Assembly (NCBI RefSeq): GCF_013839425.1
Contig: NZ_JACDNP010000002.1
Span: 1 to 64,000 of the forward strand
Direction: 5' to 3'
DNA: 64,000 nt
DNA from: Halorhabdus salina
Lineage (GTDB): Archaea > Halobacteriota > Halobacteria > Halobacteriales > Haloarculaceae
Shown: one piece after another, positions 26,729-36,633 of the stretch
Position numbering within the stretch: position 1 is the first letter of the stretch
Layout: the number at the start of each line of letters is the position of its first letter
Translations under genes and position numbers: made by a program
The notes under the pieces: model-generated
Seen by the model: the letters and a program-made list of their open reading frames with translations, nothing else
What the model was told of the DNA's origin: nothing
Database searches by the model: none

Positions 26729-28795
26729 TCAGTCCTCGCCGTCCGCTCGGCGGCGGGCAAGAGCGAGCACGGCCAGTGCGAGAACTGCCACGCCGAGACC
26801 ACCACCGGCCAGCCAGAGGATCGACACTCCGCCCGTGTCTTCAGTCGTTGTGGTCGTCGGTGGTTGGACCGACGTCTCACTCGGGGTTTGAGCGGCCGTC
26901 TCTATTGGGGATTCAGTCGCTGTGGTCGTCTCGGTTGTCGATTCTGTCGGCGTGGCCGTTTCAGTCGGAGTTTCGTCGTCAACTTGCTGACGTTGTTCGA
27001 CAGTCAGCGTCTCGACGGTGTCGCCGTTGAGTGCGATTGTCCACTCGCCGACCGGACGTTCGACGCTGAACTCGACGGTCGCCGTGGATTTCCCGGCGAC
27101 GGCCACTGTCTCGGAACCAAGGTCTTGGCCGTCGGAAGTGAGCGAGAGCGTGTGGCTTCCGTCGGCGTTGCCTCGATTCTCGATCGTCGCGGTCAGTGTC
27201 GTCGTCTCGTTGGATTTGATGATCGTCTCGGCCAGCGTCACCTCGATCACGTCGAATTTCGGCGCGCTCGTGCCGAGTGCGAACACCGAGTAGCCGGGCG
27301 AGACACCCTCGAAGCGGTAGTGCGTGGCGTTCTCGCCGACAAACGAGGTGGGCAGGGCACTCCAGGCGTCGTTGTGCTGGCGGTAGAGACTGACCTCGGT
27401 TGGTCCGACTCCGAGGTCGTCGAGGTATGCCTGCCTGACGCTAAAGGAGAAGGTAGCGTTCGAGACGTCCGATTCGTCGAGTTTGTGCTCGACCCGGACG
27501 TAGCCCGCCGCGACGGTGCCGGTTTCGTTCTCGAAGTCGTGTGCAGCTTGTTCGACTGTCTCGTCGGGTGCGTCGCCCGTCGCCGTTTGCAGGTTCTCGC
27601 TGTAGGTACTCACGTTGAGCCAGAACTCGCGGTCAGTGGTGACGTTGGTCCGGAGGCTGTCGACGGTAAGGTTGTCGGACTGGCCGATTGCCGCTCCACC
27701 GGTTGTCGAGTTATCAATCACGACGGTCGAGCCACTCGTGGCGTTCGTGACCGTCGCCACGGTCCCGCCATCGCGGTCTTGCTCGACGGTGACGGAGGGT
27801 TCTTGGTCGGGCGTCGTGTCGTCGGTGCCGTCGTCAGCGTCATCACCATCGTCGGTATCGCCAACGGAGGTACCGGGTGGCGGGCCGACAGTGCCGCCTT
27901 CGTCGCTGGATTCGACCGTGATCTCGAGGGTGTCGGTGTCGGTGTTACCGACATCGTCGGTCACCCGCAGCGTCACGGTTTTTGTCCCGGTCGAGCTGTA
28001 ACTGTGACTGGGTAGAGACCCCGTGAGCTCGTAGCTCGAGTCGTCGTCGACGTCCCACTCGTAGCTCACGACACCGTTGTCGTCCGACGATCCAGTACCG
28101 TCGAAGGAAAACGAGGTTCCTTCGTCGACTGTCTGGTCGCTACCGGCGTCGGCGGTCGGATTCTCGTCGTCAACCACGGTCACGGCCCTGTCACCGGATG
28201 TCGAAGAGAGCGAGAGGGTGATCTCGCCGCTGCCGTCGGTGGTGCCGCTGTCGAGCGTCCCCCCGCCGACCTCGTCGAGTCGCAGCGCAGCGTTCGCTGG
28301 TTGGCCCGTGATCGTCAACGTAACCTCGGAAGTGGCGTCGTAGACGACGTCTGCATCGGTGCTCGTTGCATCGACACTACTGACGTTTAGACTGTCCATG
28401 TCCGAGCTTTTGACGCGTACGGCCTGCTTGTCGCTGGCGTTGATCTCGAGTTCGTTCGAAACGTCGTGAGTCGTGACGTTGGTCCACGTACCGGTGATGG
28501 ACTCGACGGTAACGTTGCTCGCGCCACTGGAATTGAAGTAAGCGTGTGGCGAGAGGTCGACCGTCTCGCCGTCGGGATAGTAGAAGGTGTCTTCGAGTTC
28601 GAGTTCTTCCGTGATAGTGATGGTCGGGCCGCTGTCGCTAGCAGTGAACGTGGTGCCCGAAGAGACGACCGGGCCGGCGGCCCCGACGATTCCCATCACG
28701 CTCCACCCGACAGTCAGCATCGCCAGCACGACGATCACGGCAGCGAATGTCCGTGGGCGGCTCGTGATCGCCGACCTGCGGGTGTCGTCACTCAT
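26729..28795 (-). CDS. Surface protein with PKD and PGF-pre-PGF-type domains and C-terminal anchor
   Basis: 688 residues. An N-terminal hydrophobic segment (FAAVIVVLAMLTVGWSVMGIVGAAG) serves as signal peptide. Then come beta-rich domains, a PKD domain (near residue 240, ADAGSDQTVDEGTSFSFDGTGSSDDNG), a PGF-pre-PGF domain (FWLNVSTYSE to GYSVFALG), a CARDB-like domain with NNRGNADGSH-type sequence, a Thr/Glu-rich stalk and a C-terminal membrane span with RRR cap. It faces the cell exterior. The Thr-rich stalk is probably glycosylated. Downstream of the fibre gene in the same direction with 75 bases between, so possibly co-transcribed. Confidence 0.85.
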   Translation of the reverse strand: MSDDTRRSAITSRPRTFAAVIVVLAMLTVGWSVMGIVGAAGPVVSSGTTFTASDSGPTITITEELELEDTFYYPDGETVDLSPHAYFNSSGASNVTVESITGTWTNVTTHDVSNELEINASDKQAVRVKSSDMDSLNVSSVDATSTDADVVYDATSEVTLTITGQPANAALRLDEVGGGTLDSGTTDGSGEITLSLSSTSGDRAVTVVDDENPTADAGSDQTVDEGTSFSFDGTGSSDDNGVVSYEWDVDDDSSYELTGSLPSHSYSSTGTKTVTLRVTDDVGNTDTDTLEITVESSDEGGTVGPPPGTSVGDTDDGDDADDGTDDTTPDQEPSVTVEQDRDGGTVATVTNATSGSTVVIDNSTTGGAAIGQSDNLTVDSLRTNVTTDREFWLNVSTYSENLQTATGDAPDETVEQAAHDFENETGTVAAGYVRVEHKLDESDVSNATFSFSVRQAYLDDLGVGPTEVSLYRQHNDAWSALPTSFVGENATHYRFEGVSPGYSVFALGTSAPKFDVIEVTLAETIIKSNETTTLTATIENRGNADGSHTLSLTSDGQDLGSETVAVAGKSTATVEFSVERPVGEWTIALNGDTVETLTVEQRQQVDDETPTETATPTESTTETTTATESPIETAAQTPSETSVQPPTTTTTEDTGGVSILWLAGGGLGVAVLALAVLALARRRADGED

Positions 28796-28870: not shown

Positions 28871-29167
28871 TCAAACATCGGGCCCTCCGGGCTGGTCCGG
28901 TAGCGAGTCCGGCTCGGCGGAGTCTTCTGCCAGTTCGATCTGGTCACGGTTGTCCCAGATGGCGTTGATCAGTTGCATCGCCTGTGCGGTGAGGTTCTGA
29001 TTGAGGTTGGCCGCCAGCAATTCCGCGACGGTGTCCTGGCCGAACTCCTCACAGAGTCGGTCGTACATCAGCGCCCGCGGTTCGTCGAAGGCCGTCGGGT
29101 CGATTTCGATAGTGAGTGTGATGGGGTCGGCCGCTTCGTCGTCGGCTTCCGATCCAGCGTCAGTCAT
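28871..29167 (-). CDS. Small acidic protein coupled to the fibre gene
   Basis: 98 residues, very acidic, with helices in the middle: LMYDRLCEEFGQDTVAELLAANLNQNLTAQAMQLINAIWDNRDQIE. No signal peptide. Its start overlaps the end of the fibre gene by eight bases, so translation is coupled. It may be a chaperone, assembly or anchoring partner for the fibre; nothing in the sequence decides. No known family recognised. Confidence 0.72.
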   Translation of the reverse strand: MTDAGSEADDEAADPITLTIEIDPTAFDEPRALMYDRLCEEFGQDTVAELLAANLNQNLTAQAMQLINAIWDNRDQIELAEDSAEPDSLPDQPGGPDV

Positions 29168-32100
29168 CGGCGCTCACCCCCGCGTCCGCGCCGTCCATCC
29201 CGACGTGGGCTTCGAGTGTTTCCAGCCGGGATTCCAGTTCGTCGATGCGGTCGTCTTTCTCGTCGAGTTCTGATTCTAGCGCGTCGATCTGGTTGTCTCT
29301 GTTCTCGACTTTGGATTCGAGGTGGTTGATGCGGTCTCGCTGATCCTCGATGCGGGAGTCTTTAGCGTCGAGGTCGGCTTCGAGGTCGGCTATCTCCTCG
29401 GTACAGGCGTCGCGGTCCTCGACGAGGTCCCGGAGGAGTTCCTGATGCATCGCCAGCCACGCTCGGTCGTGGATGTTGTCCGGGACGACTGTCTCTCCGT
29501 CGCGTTCGATGGCGTACTCGTCGAGGTAGTCCTGGTCGATACCGTCGCTGGTTTGCCAGGCATCCTCCAAGGACTCGTAGCTGACCAGCCACTCCAGTCC
29601 GGCATCGTGTGCACTCTCGGCAGTGATACCGAGTCGGTCGCCGCCATCGCCGTTGCCCTTCGTGAACGTCTTTGCCTCGACATCGAGAACGGCGGTCGAG
29701 TCACCCGAGAACGACTGGACGTTCGACTTGAGTCGCTCCGTCGAATAACTGCCGACAGTGACAGTGCCGCTGTTGTTTGCAGAGTCTCTGGCATACATTT
29801 TCACCTCGGTATTATCACTATCGGTAACCATCATCACTTGAGCCCCTGATAGATCTGCCGCACTCAAGCCGGCGGCGTCAGCGGCCGCTTGCTGAATTAT
29901 GGGGTCAGTGGTCGATGGTGTTGCAAGAATCATCTCGTCATCCGTGTTGAGTTCGATACCACCCTTCGCGGGAGCCGCTTGAGCTTGCCACTCTATCTTT
30001 GTGCCATTTGCCAGGCCGATTGCGGAGTCCGGGGTTGTCGTGCCACCAATGTTATTCACATTGTTCCCGTTGAGGTCGAGTTTGCCGTTGCTGGTGTCGA
30101 CATTCACCACTGCGTTCCCGTCCTTGTCCTGAACCTCCAGCATGTTCGTCTGGTTGGATTCGGGCGCGATGACGAATCCACCAGTCGCCTGAAAGCGAAC
30201 CTCGTTTGTCGCCTGCGCAAGCACGTCAGTAGATGACGAATCTCCCCAGACAAACGCACCATTGTAGGTGTTGGCTTTAGCAAAGGAGCCTGCAGCCAGT
30301 GAGCCGTCGCCGTTAGCTGTGTTGTTATCGCCACCAGGGACAGTAGACTGTGCTCCGCTGGCAGTGTTCCCAATTCCACCGCCGACAGACGAATTGGTGC
30401 CCGATGCGGTATTCCCCCAACCTCCTGCAGTAGTCGACTGGCCTCCACCGGCAGTGTTTCCTCTTCCACCGGCGATAGTCGACTGGCCTCCACTGGCAGT
30501 GTTCCCTTCTCCACCGCCGATAGTCGACTCCAACCCGCTTGCTTCGTTGCCCTCGCCGCCCCCGATAGTTGCGAAATTGTTGCTGACGGTGTTATTGGAA
30601 CCATCTGCCCCGCCCCCGCCGATGAACACTCCTTCCGATTGGCTACTGCCAGTGTTGTTGTTCGGATGGCCCCCGACGACGTTCGGTGCGGTGGTGCTAG
30701 AACCGGGGTTGCTGATGTCAATGCCCCCGTCGACGACCTGGAAGGCAGTGTCGCCGTTCCCGGCCGTCGCTAAATAGCTCGACGTGCCACCGCCGATATC
30801 GCTGATGCTTTTGCTGCCTTTGCCGACATTGCCACTGCTGTCGATGGTGAGGATGCTGTCGTCCTGTGAAGCTATATTTTTCAGGACGACGTTGTTGCTT
30901 GTTGAACCAGGATTCAGCGTCAGGTTGCCGTTATCGTTGGTCGTGACCGTGATGCCGCCATTGGAGGTTTCGAGGTTATTCCCGTCTAGGTCGACGTTCC
31001 CCGAGGGACTCAGTACCAGGTCACCGGTCGTCGTCGAGAGGTCGCCGTCGGTACCGTCGTGTGAGATGTCCACCGAATCCGAGGCGTCGCCGTCGAACAC
31101 CTGCACCTTGTGATTGGTGGTGTCAGCCCCCAGAAGTGAGTTCCCGGCCTGGTCCTGAACCTCCAGCATGTTCGGCTGGTCAGACTCGGGCGCGATGACG
31201 AACCCGCCGGTGGCCTGGAACAGGACCTGATCGGCTGTGTCCGCACTGATGGTGGTTTGCGATGAGTCACCCCAGACGAATGCACCGGCTTTGTCAGTAT
31301 ACCCCCTCCTACCTGCAGCGAGCGAGTGCGAACCGAGGGCCTTGTTTAATTTCCCACCAGGGACGGTTGCTTTCTCTCCATTCGCAACATTCTTTGCCCC
31401 TCCACCAACGGTTGCAGAGAGGCCATCTGCTTCATTATCGTCTCCGCCACCGATGGCTGCCTTCTCGCCGCTTGATGTATTAGAGTTCCCTCCGGCAACG
31501 GTGGCATAACTGGTGGTCGCATCATTGCTGGCTCCTCCAGCAACCGTTGCAAAGTTCGTCGCCGTATTCCCATCCCCGCCACCGACGGTTGCTAATCTGG
31601 CGCTCGCCTCGTTCGCCCTGCCACCACCAATGAAAGCAAAATTAGACGAGTTTCCAGATATTTTATTTGGAAGGCTGTCTGAACCCCCGCCGGAGATTGT
31701 CACTCCTTCCGATTGGCTACTGCCCGTGTTGTTGCTCGGATGGCCCCCGACGACGTTCGGTGCGTCGATGCCTGGAGAGGCGCTGCTGACGTCGGTGGTG
31801 CCATCGACGACCTGGAACGCGGTGTTCCCGCTCGTCACGAGTTCGCTTGTACTGCCGCCACCCGAGGCTTCCAGCGAGTTGTTGTTGATGCTCAAGCCAC
31901 TGCCTGCAATATCTGTCAGTGAGGTCCCACCGGTGACACCGCCGTTGAGTTCCTCCGTGTAGAGACTGTTTAGGGGATCGCTACTGGTTCCGACGCTGCC
32001 CTGTGCATCCGCACTCGCTGTGCCAGCACTGAGGCCGAGCAAACCGAGGATACCGCCGGCCTTGAGTATCGTTCGACGATTGGTGTGCAGCGGTCCGTCC

Positions 32101-32246
32101 TCTGCGTCAAGGTCCTCCTCGAGGACCGCTTCGAGACGATCCCGCTGGTCCTGAATGGTTGCTGTCTGTTCTTCGATGCGGTGCTGTTGTCGTTCGACGA
32201 GGGATTCGAGTGTTTCGAGGCGTTCGTCGGTGGATTCGTGTGTCAT
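29160..32246 (-). CDS. YadA-head-repeat fibre protein with C-terminal S74-type chaperone domain
   Basis: 1028 residues. In order: an acidic coiled coil (about 5-45), a Tat-like segment (NRRTILKAGGILGLLGL, Arg57-Arg58), Gly/Ser/Asn-rich body with two blocks of 14-residue YadA-type head repeats (pattern xStVxGGxGNtAsG; about 200-320 and 545-660), then from residue about 835 an S74 intramolecular-chaperone-like domain (STERLKSNV, with Ser and Lys of the self-cleaving pair) and a long coiled coil (about 930-1015). Phage tail fibres and trimeric adhesins use these parts. It is probably a trimeric surface fibre whose C-terminal chaperone is released after folding. ATG 32246 chosen over GTG 32255. 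Confidence 0.82.
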   Translation of the reverse strand: MTHESTDERLETLESLVERQQHRIEEQTATIQDQRDRLEAVLEEDLDAEDGPLHTNRRTILKAGGILGLLGLSAGTASADAQGSVGTSSDPLNSLYTEELNGGVTGGTSLTDIAGSGLSINNNSLEASGGGSTSELVTSGNTAFQVVDGTTDVSSASPGIDAPNVVGGHPSNNTGSSQSEGVTISGGGSDSLPNKISGNSSNFAFIGGGRANEASARLATVGGGDGNTATNFATVAGGASNDATTSYATVAGGNSNTSSGEKAAIGGGDDNEADGLSATVGGGAKNVANGEKATVPGGKLNKALGSHSLAAGRRGYTDKAGAFVWGDSSQTTISADTADQVLFQATGGFVIAPESDQPNMLEVQDQAGNSLLGADTTNHKVQVFDGDASDSVDISHDGTDGDLSTTTGDLVLSPSGNVDLDGNNLETSNGGITVTTNDNGNLTLNPGSTSNNVVLKNIASQDDSILTIDSSGNVGKGSKSISDIGGGTSSYLATAGNGDTAFQVVDGGIDISNPGSSTTAPNVVGGHPNNNTGSSQSEGVFIGGGGADGSNNTVSNNFATIGGGEGNEASGLESTIGGGEGNTASGGQSTIAGGRGNTAGGGQSTTAGGWGNTASGTNSSVGGGIGNTASGAQSTVPGGDNNTANGDGSLAAGSFAKANTYNGAFVWGDSSSTDVLAQATNEVRFQATGGFVIAPESNQTNMLEVQDKDGNAVVNVDTSNGKLDLNGNNVNNIGGTTTPDSAIGLANGTKIEWQAQAAPAKGGIELNTDDEMILATPSTTDPIIQQAAADAAGLSAADLSGAQVMMVTDSDNTEVKMYARDSANNSGTVTVGSYSTERLKSNVQSFSGDSTAVLDVEAKTFTKGNGDGGDRLGITAESAHDAGLEWLVSYESLEDAWQTSDGIDQDYLDEYAIERDGETVVPDNIHDRAWLAMHQELLRDLVEDRDACTEEIADLEADLDAKDSRIEDQRDRINHLESKVENRDNQIDALESELDEKDDRIDELESRLETLEAHVGMDGADAGVSADD

Positions 32247-32397
32247 CGTTCCCACCCTTTCGGGGCCCCGAGACGACCCAATCCGTCTGTTCGCCAGTCC
32301 GTTCCACTGCTGGTGTCAAGATTGAGAACCGAAATGGGTTCGCGTGCCTTGGCGAAATCCATATCCCAAAATGCGTCTACGTCAACTAAACGAGTCT

Positions 32398-32413
32398 ACC
32401 TTCACCAGAAGGT
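32398..32413 (-). promoter_or_regulatory. Operator-like palindrome ACCTTC-N4-GAAGGT, copy 1
   Basis: ACCTTC (32398-32403) and GAAGGT (32408-32413) around ACCA form a perfect 6-bp inverted repeat. On the minus strand it directly follows TTTTATGATTTTT, an apparent TATA box, so it sits near the expected start of transcription of the fibre gene, about 150 bases before ATG 32246. Bound protein there could block or modulate the promoter. Confidence 0.6.
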
Positions 32414-32557
32414 GAAAAATCATAAAATTCGATTCATAATGGACTATCACCATTGTTCCACTCACTCGCCAGTCGCTGGATCGGCCGATTCATTCCAAAA
32501 ATGAGTGAATATTGCCGGCAGAGTCGCGCTTTGTCCGATATCGCACTTTCGAGTGTT

Positions 32558-32573
32558 ACCTTCGTGTGAAGGT
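32558..32573 (-). promoter_or_regulatory. Operator-like palindrome ACCTTC-N4-GAAGGT, copy 2
   Basis: ACCTTC-GTGT-GAAGGT, perfect 6-bp arms, 160 bases upstream of copy 1 (next to AAAATC on the minus strand). The flanks agree with copy 1 (TCACCTTC...GAAGGTA on the minus strand). It may be an upstream activator site for the fibre gene or a second promoter's operator. Confidence 0.55.
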
Positions 32574-32910
32574 GATTTTGCCCCACAACCAGCTTGATCA
32601 CCGTTATACATCGATGTGCAGATCTGTCACAGTCGATCCCTTTCAGAAGACTATGGCTATCATCTTTGATATTAGAATGTTCCTCTCGGCGGTAATCGCG
32701 TCCGATCGGCCCCGCTGGTCGATCACATCCGAGTGTCAACGGATTGCTGTCAGCCATTCCAGAATCGACCGCTTGGAGTGACCACCATCATGTCTGCAGA
32801 CGCGAGCAGTACCGAAGCCATCCAGAAAGGCCGCGTCGCCTGGACCAGCCGACGCGGACGGGATCGAACGGGTGCTTTCAGGCTGTGCTCTCCACACACA
32901 ACAGTCCGTC

Positions 32911-34851
32911 TCACTCGAAGTGGTCGTCGAACACCTGCTGTTGGGCCCGGTGGAGGTGCTGGAGGAACGTCGAGTGAGCGATGCCGAGCGACTCGGCGAT
33001 CTCCGAAGCCGTACTGCCCCGTGGTTGCTCGAAATAGCCGTAGTGGTAGGCCGCCCGCAGCGCCTGACTCTGTTTGTCGGTCAAGGCGTCGAACCCCGAA
33101 GCGGTGTCTCCGGCGGGCCAGTCGTGCTCCGTGACGGCCTGGACCGATACCGCATCAAAGTCCCTCTCCAGCGCCACGACCGTCGACGAGACAGCGTCGT
33201 GGGACTGAAGTTGTACCTCGACGATGACGGCGTCGTCCTCGACGGTCGTGGACTCGACGATCACGCCCTGGCGCCGGAGGTGTGCCTCCGGACTGGGGCC
33301 CGTGGCTGTCACCTGCAGCCTGAGCGGATCGTCGTCGATCTCCTCGACCGATTCGACGGCCGGATGCTCGGTGAGGGCGTCCAGAATCGCTGACGGCCCG
33401 TCGATGACGAGAAATTGGACGAACCGATCACCGTCGTCCGGGACGGTGCCCTGGACGCGCACCTGCTCAGAGTCCTGGAACGCGCCCTCGCTCGCGAGCG
33501 CAGCGAGATAGTACGCGTCGTCGGACACCCGAATTCGCGCCGTGACGGTCTGTTCTGCGGCGAGCGTGTTCGTCGTCTCCAGGGTGTGACTGCCGAAGGC
33601 AATCACGTCAGCCAGATCACCCAACAGCCGGCGCTCGGTGTCGTCGAACCGCTCCGGCGTCTCGTGATACACCGCCAGCAGTCCGTATGGCACGCCGTTG
33701 TGTTCCAGGGGCAACGCTCCGCCGGCCCGATAGCCGTGGGTCATGGCCGCATCCTGCCAGGGAGCGTCCAGCAGGGACGTGACATCCTGGACGAACTGGG
33801 GGCCACCCGACCGGGCCGCCCAGGCGACGGGTTCGCCCTTGAGTTCGTCGCGGTCAGCGTGTGACAGCGCATCGACGAACGCGCGATCGCCCGCGATAGT
33901 CCGAGGTGACGGCGGTGTGGATTCGCCGTCGGCGATCCAGGCGACCGGATAGCCGTACGCGTAGAGTTCATCGACCACGGCACGCTCGAATCCGTCTCTG
34001 GTCCGTGACTCGACCAACGCTTGCAGGACCGTCCGCGTGAGATCCCGTTCCCATCGCAACTCCCGCTCGCGCCGCTGGCGCTCGCTCACGTCCCGAATCG
34101 AAATGAGCAGTCCGCGCTGGCCCTCGTAGCTAATTCGTCGCCCCGTCACCGTACACTCCCGGACCGTCCCGTCGGCGCGACGAATGCGAAGCTCCTGAAT
34201 CGCGGGCTGTGCGTCCCCGTTCCAGTTCGAGAGCGCCGATCGCACCTGTTCGCGCTCGTCTGGGTGAACGGCCTCTTCGAAGAACTCTTCGTCAGTCCAG
34301 GCCCCAGCGTCTCGGCCCGTGAGTTCGCCAAAGCGCCGGTTGCAAAACTGAACGCGCCCCTCCCGGAGAATACAGATCGCGTCACGACTCTGCTCGACGA
34401 CGGTCCGGTAGCGCCGTTCACTTGCTTCGAGGCGCTGCCGCAAGCGATGCTCTGTGACGACCCCGCTGATCTTCTCGGCCAGCAGTACCGTCTGATCCGC
34501 CATTGGCTCTTTGACGACGTAATCGCTCACACCGGCCTCGATCGCCCTGGCGGCAACGTCTTCGCTCCCTTCGCTTGTGACGAGGATGAACGGAAGATCC
34601 GGGTGCTCCTCGCGGATGCGATCGAGCAACTCCAGCCCGGTGATCCCCGGCATCATGTAATCGACGACGAGACAGTCCACCCGATCGCTGTCCTCGAGAT
34701 GCACGATCGCTTCGTTCGCGTCGGTTGCCACGGCCACGGAGATCGCGTCGTTTTCGTCTTCGATCCGGCTCCCGACCAGTGAGGCCCACTGTTCGTTGTC
34801 GTCGATCAACAGCGCGTGGATGTCTGCATCAGCTGAGTCGGTTTGCGTCAT
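32911..34851 (-). CDS. Bat-type regulator: REC-PAS-GAF with C-terminal HTH-10
   Basis: 646 residues. A receiver domain (about 10-125) has the phosphoryl-accepting Asp64 in CLVVDYMMPG and Lys near 116 in VVKEP. Then a PAS domain (about 145-265), a GAF-like domain (about 285-440, WIADGESTPPSP to ADVIAFG), a bacterioopsin-activator GAF/HTH-associated domain and a terminal HTH-10 (ALTDKQSQALRAAYHYGYF ... GIAHSTFLQHLHRAQ). Such proteins sense signals through PAS/GAF and act on transcription. ATG 34851 fits the promoter 34938-34970. It is adjacent to the fibre gene and shares its palindrome, suggesting it governs that gene and itself. Confidence 0.9.
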   Translation of the reverse strand: MTQTDSADADIHALLIDDNEQWASLVGSRIEDENDAISVAVATDANEAIVHLEDSDRVDCLVVDYMMPGITGLELLDRIREEHPDLPFILVTSEGSEDVAARAIEAGVSDYVVKEPMADQTVLLAEKISGVVTEHRLRQRLEASERRYRTVVEQSRDAICILREGRVQFCNRRFGELTGRDAGAWTDEEFFEEAVHPDEREQVRSALSNWNGDAQPAIQELRIRRADGTVRECTVTGRRISYEGQRGLLISIRDVSERQRRERELRWERDLTRTVLQALVESRTRDGFERAVVDELYAYGYPVAWIADGESTPPSPRTIAGDRAFVDALSHADRDELKGEPVAWAARSGGPQFVQDVTSLLDAPWQDAAMTHGYRAGGALPLEHNGVPYGLLAVYHETPERFDDTERRLLGDLADVIAFGSHTLETTNTLAAEQTVTARIRVSDDAYYLAALASEGAFQDSEQVRVQGTVPDDGDRFVQFLVIDGPSAILDALTEHPAVESVEEIDDDPLRLQVTATGPSPEAHLRRQGVIVESTTVEDDAVIVEVQLQSHDAVSSTVVALERDFDAVSVQAVTEHDWPAGDTASGFDALTDKQSQALRAAYHYGYFEQPRGSTASEIAESLGIAHSTFLQHLHRAQQQVFDDHFE

Positions 34852-34937
34852 CTCTCCGAGACAGACCTTGCAGTGATTCCACGACCCACACCTGGTCCGT
34901 GCCAGCACCGCCGACCATCCGACGATATCCGATACAT

Positions 34938-34970
34938 ACCTTCACGTGAAGGCCCTTGCTTGTAAATTAA
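34938..34970 (-). promoter_or_regulatory. Promoter and palindrome (copy 3) of the bat-type regulator
   Basis: CCTTC-ACGT-GAAGG (34939-34952) is a perfect palindrome. On the minus strand it follows CTTAATTTACAAG, a TATA-like stretch at about 34957-34970, at the same relative place as copy 1 next to the fibre-gene TATA. This suggests autoregulation. Confidence 0.55.
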
Positions 34971-35109: not shown

Positions 35110-36633
35110 ATGACTGAGCGTTCCGAAAATCCAAGGCGGACGCCAGCAGGGCCCGATCCGTCGCTGTTACCTTTCCCCTATCAGTGTCTCGACCGGCAAG
35201 GCAACATCCGAGAGGTCAACGCCGCCTGGAAAGATCGCCTCGGATTCGACGCCGGGACCGTTCGTGGTGAGTGGTTCGGCGAGTACATCGCCCCGACCGA
35301 CAGAGGCCGATTCGACCAGGTCTTTGAGACGATCGTCGAGGATCAATCCACCAGTCCGCTGGAACTGACGCTGGTGGACGCGGACGGCCAGTCGGTGACA
35401 GTCGCGATGGCGGTCGCGATCGAACGCGACGACGAAGGCTCGTTCGTCCGGGCACATTGCCAGTTCACGGACGTGTCACGGCCGAAGGAATCGATCGGCA
35501 AAGCCCGGTCCCGGACGGACAGTGAAGCGGGATTCAGCGACACGGAGCAACGAATGAAGCTGGCGGTCGAAGGGGCAAACGTCGGCATCTGGGAGTGGGA
35601 CATGGTGGCCGACGAGGTGTTTCGGGACGAGTTGCTGGCGAATATGCTGGGATATACACCCGAAGAGATGGGCGATCACCTGGATGACTGGGAACGACTG
35701 GTCCATCCCGAAGGCGAGCAACGGCACAACGAGGCGCTGGCCGAACACATCGCCGAGGATACCGAGTTCTACCAGTGTGACTACCGGATGAAGACCAAAT
35801 CCGGGGACTGGAAGTGGGTGCGAACGATGGGGAAAGTCGTCGAGCGCGATGACGATGGCACGCCACTGCGGTCGGTCGGCATCCACCTCGACATCGACGA
35901 GCAGAAACGGAATCAGCTGAAACTGGCCCGCCGAACAGAGCAACTCGAAGCGCTCAACCGGGTCGTGAGACACGACATCCGCAACGACATGAACGTGCTT
36001 CACATGTGGGCACAGGAGTTGGCGGACCAGGTCGACGAAACGGGCGAGAAAGCAGTCGAGCAGATTCTCCATGCGAGTCGCCACATCATCGAACTGACCG
36101 ACGTCGCCCGCGAGTTCATCGAGTCCCTGGGCATGGACGAGGACGTGGATCTGAAACCGATCCCCCTGGATGAACAGCTCCGGAACGAACTCGACAAGCA
36201 ACGAGAGACGTATCCCGACGCTCACTTCGAGGTCGTCGACGATCTGCCATCCGTGACTGTCCGTGCGAACGAGATGCTGTCCTCGGTGTTCCGTAATCTG
36301 CTCGTCAACGCTGTCGAACACAACGACGCCGATACCCCCGTCGTGACCGTGTCGATGGCGTTGCATGACGATACTGTCGAGATCACGATCGCGGACAACG
36401 GCCCTGGCATCCCGGACGCCCTCCGGGACGAGATCTTCGGCAAGGGGACGAACGGCCTGGACGGCGGCACCGGGATCGGCCTGTATCTGGTCGAACGGCT
36501 CGTCGATGGCTACGGCGGTGATGTCAGGATCGCAGATGGACAACGCCATCCCGCCACAGGCAGTCAGTCCCTGGCCGACGACACAGCGAGTGGTGCCGTC
36601 TTCGTGATCGAACTGTCACTGGGCGAGACCTGA
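35110..36633 (+). CDS. PAS-domain histidine kinase
   Basis: 507 residues. Two PAS domains (about 20-135 and 155-275, the second with KTKSGDWKWVRTMGKVVERDDDGTP), an H-box with RVVRHDIRNDMNVLHMW (phosphorylated His near 299), and a HATPase domain with N-box NLLVNAVEHND, G1 DNGPGIPD, and GTGIGLYLVERLV. No transmembrane segment, so it senses inside the cell. It is divergent from the bat-type regulator with 260 bases between, so a phosphorelay to that regulator's receiver is plausible but not shown. Followed by a 230-base gap with no gene. Confidence 0.92.
   Translation: MTERSENPRRTPAGPDPSLLPFPYQCLDRQGNIREVNAAWKDRLGFDAGTVRGEWFGEYIAPTDRGRFDQVFETIVEDQSTSPLELTLVDADGQSVTVAMAVAIERDDEGSFVRAHCQFTDVSRPKESIGKARSRTDSEAGFSDTEQRMKLAVEGANVGIWEWDMVADEVFRDELLANMLGYTPEEMGDHLDDWERLVHPEGEQRHNEALAEHIAEDTEFYQCDYRMKTKSGDWKWVRTMGKVVERDDDGTPLRSVGIHLDIDEQKRNQLKLARRTEQLEALNRVVRHDIRNDMNVLHMWAQELADQVDETGEKAVEQILHASRHIIELTDVAREFIESLGMDEDVDLKPIPLDEQLRNELDKQRETYPDAHFEVVDDLPSVTVRANEMLSSVFRNLLVNAVEHNDADTPVVTVSMALHDDTVEITIADNGPGIPDALRDEIFGKGTNGLDGGTGIGLYLVERLVDGYGGDVRIADGQRHPATGSQSLADDTASGAVFVIELSLGET

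Follow-up and report, generated by a model that had tools for sequence, protein, structure and literature searches.

In the parts of a census of archaeal two-component systems on which we draw (PMC5847659), direct transcriptional output is described as uncommon, with protein-protein interaction apparently the prevailing mode; the REC-BAT-HTH_10 regulators are given as the main exception to this rule, and the REC-PAS-GAF-BAT-HTH_10 architecture is listed for Halobacteria. Bat itself is described as an activator, and DmsR of Halobacterium, whose HTH is similar to that of Bat, controls the dms operon positively (PMC1447603). The haloarchaeal genomes that we searched contain 9 to 59 HTH_10 regulators each. 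Here, we analyzed a 64,000-nucleotide stretch of DNA from Halorhabdus salina (the window). We assign a probability of about 0.72 to a reading in which palindromes in the window are the operators of a REC-PAS-GAF-BAT-HTH_10 regulator that is paired with a divergent kinase, activates the neighboring surface gene, and probably represses its own.

The regulator gene (32911-34851, minus strand) encodes a 646-aa response regulator whose domain architecture is that of the REC-PAS-GAF-BAT-HTH_10 proteins listed in the census passages (PMC5847659) and is common to Bat. The HTH_10 domain (PF04967) at the C terminus and the BAT domain (PF15915) before it scored 72.8 and 66.2 bits, both above the Pfam cutoffs, as were the PAS (PF00989) and GAF (PF13185) sensor domains. 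By this domain content, the protein is a member of the Bat-type HTH_10 regulators. Its receiver domain gives a strong match (PF00072, 79.5 bits) and retains the full set of phosphorylation residues (D17/D18, D64, T92, and K114, invariant in five aligned orthologs), whereas the REC domain of Bat is divergent, according to the same parts of the census (PMC5847659). The locus also differs from Bat by an adjacent histidine kinase, a proposed surface-protein target, and a site at the regulator's own promoter that lies over the presumed transcription start. The kinase gene (35110-36633, plus strand), divergent from that of the regulator, encodes a 507-aa PAS-PAS-HisKA-HATPase protein (PF08447, PF02518, and a weak PF00512 match) that is 62 to 65% identical in two congeners. 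A kinase homolog adjoins most other regulator orthologs, and regulator and kinase would form a pair.

The proposed target gene (29160-32246, minus strand) encodes a fiber-like protein of 1028 aa in which we read a Tat-like signal (TNRRTILKAGG), GGG-N-A repeats, and a C-terminal coiled coil. No Pfam family scored above cutoff for this protein, and an S74-type fiber chaperone domain guessed from its sequence found no support in Pfam. The end of the fiber gene is overlapped by the gene for a 98-aa protein without a Pfam match (28871-29167, minus strand), which probably belongs to the same operon, as possibly does the gene for a 688-aa PKD surface protein (PKD_4, 1e-18) located 75 bp further downstream (26729-28795, minus strand). 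The neighbors of the regulator are thus the kinase, the fiber-like protein, and the PKD protein, with no bacteriorhodopsin target adjacent; DmsR, in contrast to the window regulator with its presumed surface-protein target, controls genes of anaerobic respiration. The census passages (PMC5847659) give no operator for regulators of this architecture, whereas here a DNA site, a partner kinase, and a target are proposed together for one REC-BAT-HTH_10 regulator, in a single locus that is conserved and belongs to a culturable genus. Kinase, regulator, and operators at own and target promoters are likewise combined in bacterial two-component systems with an autoregulated response regulator, from which the window locus differs by its archaeal TATA/TBP/TFB promoter logic and by an HTH_10 output domain that is absent from those bacterial families.

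An initial annotation had linked the fiber gene to the regulator through three copies of a palindrome, CCTTC-N4-GAAGG, placed correctly and described accurately as perfect (copies 1 and 2) or near-perfect (copy 3). Copies 1 and 2 are in the intergenic DNA that separates the regulator gene from the fiber gene, and copy 3 is in that between the regulator gene and the divergently transcribed kinase gene. All three read on the minus strand as candidate 18-bp operators. Copy 1 (32397-32414, CACCTTCTGGTGAAGGTA; inner 16-mer ACCTTCACCAGAAGGT at 32398-32413) and copy 2 (32557-32574, CACCTTCACACGAAGGTA; inner 16-mer ACCTTCGTGTGAAGGT at 32558-32573) form the proximal and distal sites of a pair, 160 bp apart, at the surface gene, and copy 3 (34937-34954, GGCCTTCACGTGAAGGTA; inner sequence ACCTTCACGTGAAGGC at 34938-34953), with one mismatch in the outermost base, sits at the regulator promoter. 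The perfect 14-mer occurs at exactly 3 places in the genome (2,859,811 bases in 25 contigs), all of them intergenic and within 2.55 kb at this locus, and is thus not scattered; the reversed control pattern occurs at 4 places in the same genome. By our own estimate, random placement would bring three sites within 2.6 kb with a chance of the order of 1e-6. The number of 14-mers with up to one mismatch in the window is unremarkable (5 observed versus 2.3 expected), as would be the case for chance or a dispersed repeat, but the clustering of 3/3 perfect copies, the layout conserved in relatives, and the held-out test described below refute this explanation, to which we give next to no probability.

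The regulator and the exact palindrome were both present in 3/7 Halorhabdus genomes (this one, G006, and H. amylolytica) and both absent in the other 4. The regulator is 64% identical to the window protein in G006 and 62% in H. amylolytica, and both relatives have the same layout: the regulator gene, divergent from that of a PAS histidine kinase, has one site at its promoter, and a pair of sites with a spacing of 162 bp precedes the gene for a large secreted protein (2341 aa or at least 2655 aa). A third exact match in H. amylolytica lies inside a PIN-toxin-like gene and was discarded. With 14 other HTH_10 genes in this genome, and with the regulator's own binding being something that we infer, a different transcription factor encoded elsewhere might bind the palindrome and control regulator, kinase, and fiber jointly; however, none of the 7 Halorhabdus genomes has the palindrome or the regulator without the other, related sites lie beside orthologs in other families, and the type of site tracks the recognition helix of the clade, which makes such a factor quite improbable. 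Instead, as judged from the sequences compared, the palindrome very probably serves as the binding site in a small circuit that regulates itself. The connection between a Bat-type regulator and a surface fiber is largely supported by the restriction of the perfect copies to this locus, the co-occurrence in Halorhabdus, and the related sites elsewhere; the circuit drawn initially has to be extended, since the adjacent PAS histidine kinase appears to belong to it and the motif is an 18-bp TACC-N10-GGTA with core CAYRTG.

The fiber stands as the proposed target in the window, but the surface gene of the sister species is not homologous to it: a homology between the fiber and the H. amylolytica surface protein, which carries GLUG and beta-propeller repeats, was rejected (best E value, 0.067), and a two-sequence alignment of the two proteins was forced and is left out of the evidence. 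At other ortholog loci, the large neighbor has cadherin and PKD domains. Since the surface protein differs between species, a conserved control cassette would drive interchangeable cargo. This suggests that the kinase-regulator-operator cassette has been kept while its cargo was exchanged, so that haloarchaea may change their cell-surface equipment and retain the switch.

Beyond the genus, 17/392 genomes of the order were positive for an ortholog at a threshold of E < 1e-90, and their neighborhoods yielded a wider 18-bp motif, TACC-[GT][AT]-CAYRTG-[AT][AC]-GGTA (TACC-KWCAYRTGWM-GGTA). The CCTTC-N4-GAAGG pattern therefore holds, but its middle bases are not free, the core being CAYRTG across the clade; the six-base cores of the window sites are CACGTG, CACACG, or CTGGTG. 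Because this consensus was drawn from the same ortholog loci, we performed a held-out test with a matrix built from nine Halorhabdus sites alone, scoring intergenic DNA within 1 kb of the other-genus orthologs against 500 dinucleotide shuffles each. The matrix scores beat the shuffles (Fisher combined p = 1.6e-6 for 17 loci and 8e-6 for 13 nonredundant loci), most strongly at G123, L114, L074, and L072, and no regulator-adjacent site was found in this DNA at L060, L112, L113, L122, L123, and L115. Paired sites also precede large surface genes outside Halorhabdus, 163 bp apart in Halalkalirubrum (L115) and 179 bp apart at L116, and in Natronococcus relatives TACCTTCATATGTCGGA lies upstream of a small conserved operon. 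Some sites have broken arms (ACCGTC..GAAGAT) and retain their position. Palindrome and regulator thus go together in Halorhabdus, with related sites beside the orthologs of other genera, in line with the co-conservation that had been predicted. Other-genus matches of a different kind (ACCTTCATGCGAAGGT, g4 genomes) lie outside promoters, at the point where a conserved, sufC-like coding sequence begins.

By their sequence, the palindromes could each fold into a stem of 6 bp and a loop of 4 bases and could then serve as RNA hairpins in 5' leaders, as attenuation or stability elements. However, the would-be loop is part of the core CAYRTG that is conserved across genera, the broken-arm sites hold their position, and the proximal target sites of Halorhabdus, being upstream of the apparent TATA box, would fall outside its transcript, so that we consider RNA elements highly improbable and retain the reading of the palindromes as DNA operators.

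Several observations concern the surroundings of these orthologs. A stand-alone receiver-domain gene near the ortholog also has the motif upstream (L115, positions 4356/4512; L116, position 7716). The regulator has a divergent signal-peptidase-like neighbor at L061, L117, and L121, and genes for small secreted proteins that resemble TasA-type fibers lie nearby at L061 and L117; both kinds of protein were named by eye and have no Pfam match.

Short leader ORFs precede both window genes, and their stop codons overlap the next start codon (ATGA). That of the regulator (34848-34937, minus strand; 29 aa) starts at the edge of copy 3, and that of the fiber (32243-32362, minus strand; 39 aa) starts 43 bp downstream of the center of copy 1. 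Short ORFs with a stop codon that overlaps or abuts the start of the next gene were found before the regulator in most promoter-driven orthologs and before the surface gene in 3/3 Halorhabdus genomes, a feature that is only suggestive because 21/84 genes show it in the background. The initial annotation had placed TATA-like sequences before copies 1 and 3. Both are present on the minus strand, 9 to 16 bp upstream of copy 3 (TTAATTTA, 34963-34970, centered 29 to 30 bp upstream of the regulator leader ATG) and about 7 to 15 bp upstream of copy 1 (AATTTTATG, 32421-32429). For the surface gene, however, the relatives favor a box just downstream of copy 1, TTTAGTT (32384-32390, minus strand), centered 25 bp upstream of the fiber leader ATG.

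The palindrome is thus common to the two genes, but its arrangement, initially taken to be the same at both, differs between regulator and target promoters. At regulator promoters, A+T content peaks (0.86) at 9 to 16 bp upstream of the site and the leader ORF starts 8 to 17 bp from the site center, so that the site would cover the presumed transcription start, a position expected of a repressor. The position of copy 3 is matched in the regulator promoters of H. amylolytica, G006, G123, L114, and L121. At the Halorhabdus surface-gene promoters (n = 3), 43, 44, and 44 bp separate the center of the proximal site from the leader ATG, and a TATA-like box lies in this interval; by analogy with the UAS of Bat, this would be an activator-like position. 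Both operators directly precede a TATA-like box and lie at about -45. Were AATTTTATG the box in use, copy 1 would be a repressor site downstream of it, and the regulator might repress both genes, blocking fiber transcription until the kinase signals release; the target site of L072 (Natrialbaceae) also comes after a TATAAAA box. The boxes of H. amylolytica and G006, which lie downstream of the proximal site at the same 43 to 44 bp to the leader ATG, and the description of Bat as an activator (PMC1447603) argue against dual repression, which we regard as unlikely.

We therefore favor activation of the surface gene combined with self-repression. In such a circuit, the regulator would pair with the divergent PAS histidine kinase, and its dimer would read TACC-KWCAYRTGWM-GGTA. 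Bound at copy 3, it would most likely repress its own gene, because the site lies over the presumed start. Once phosphorylated, it would most likely activate the fiber operon through the proximal copy 1, because this site is directly upstream of a TATA-like box, as is the UAS of Bat at bacteriorhodopsin promoters. A distal dimer at copy 2 perhaps helps activation.

Bat, the bacterio-opsin activator, has its UAS at bop, brp, and crtB1; we take the consensus of the bop UAS, the operator of Bat, to be ACCNNACTAGTTNGG, with core ACTAGT. In 293 genomes, this sequence gave 64 matches versus 21 for the reversed control; this genome contained no match. Several matches precede rhodopsin genes, three of which were checked with Pfam, by about 40 to 56 bp and have a BAT-HTH_10 gene adjacent; in these other genomes, the BAT-HTH_10 gene beside rhodopsin is a gene of its own. 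Since the ACCNNACTAGTTNGG matches show ACC-N10-GG, several rhodopsin-associated ones extending to TACC...GGTA, the two palindromic operators have a common frame but distinct cores, ACTAGT for Bat and CAYRTG for the window clade. The recognition helices differ as well, with RSTFH in three Bat proteins and HST[FY]L in the window clade (20 orthologs read, including two variant members with HPTFL and HATYL). Two orthologs with HSTFLRHL, in which RHL replaces QHL (L060 and L112), lack the clade motif. In this small sample, four copies of [AT]TGTGCATA[CT] (TATGTGCATAY-like) with an A+T-rich stretch after the element are found instead (+2008 and +3759 relative to the regulator in L060; -849 and +4238 in L112), and two of these copies precede giant surface genes. 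We tentatively propose, at somewhat less than even odds, that Bat-type HTH_10 regulators share a TACC-N10-GGTA frame in which two or three recognition-helix residues determine the six-base core (RSTFH/ACTAGT, HST[FY]L/CAYRTG, and HSTFLRHL/a further element), and that in the window clade this frame forms a kinase-regulator-paired-operator cassette for exchanged, unrelated giant surface proteins. A frame common to Bat suggests a route to operator prediction for many haloarchaeal HTH_10 regulators.

A search of this genome for further regulon members with the 18-bp pattern, allowing two mismatches, returned weak places only, which we treat as chance matches; one precedes a GAPDH-like gene, and others fall within coding sequence. 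No Bat-frame palindrome was found at the other HTH_10 genes of this genome in the DNA that we read around them, which for four large genes did not extend to the start. Among 42 other HTH_10 neighborhoods, the N10 spacing of TACC/GGTA was weakly favored, with 17 occurrences versus about 9 for most of the remaining spacings, but N15 reached 19. Two short HTH_10 genes of this genome share CGAACCAGTTCGGC just upstream (-55 in L085 and -48 in L092), which may be the operator of a further HTH_10 subgroup. Finally, TACCCAATCAGTTGGGTT and TACCGAACTGATTTGGTC flank a large HTH_10 gene of this genome (about 102106 and 107467 on contig C23; 10107 and 15468 in L162) and fit the Bat frame, again with a core of their own.
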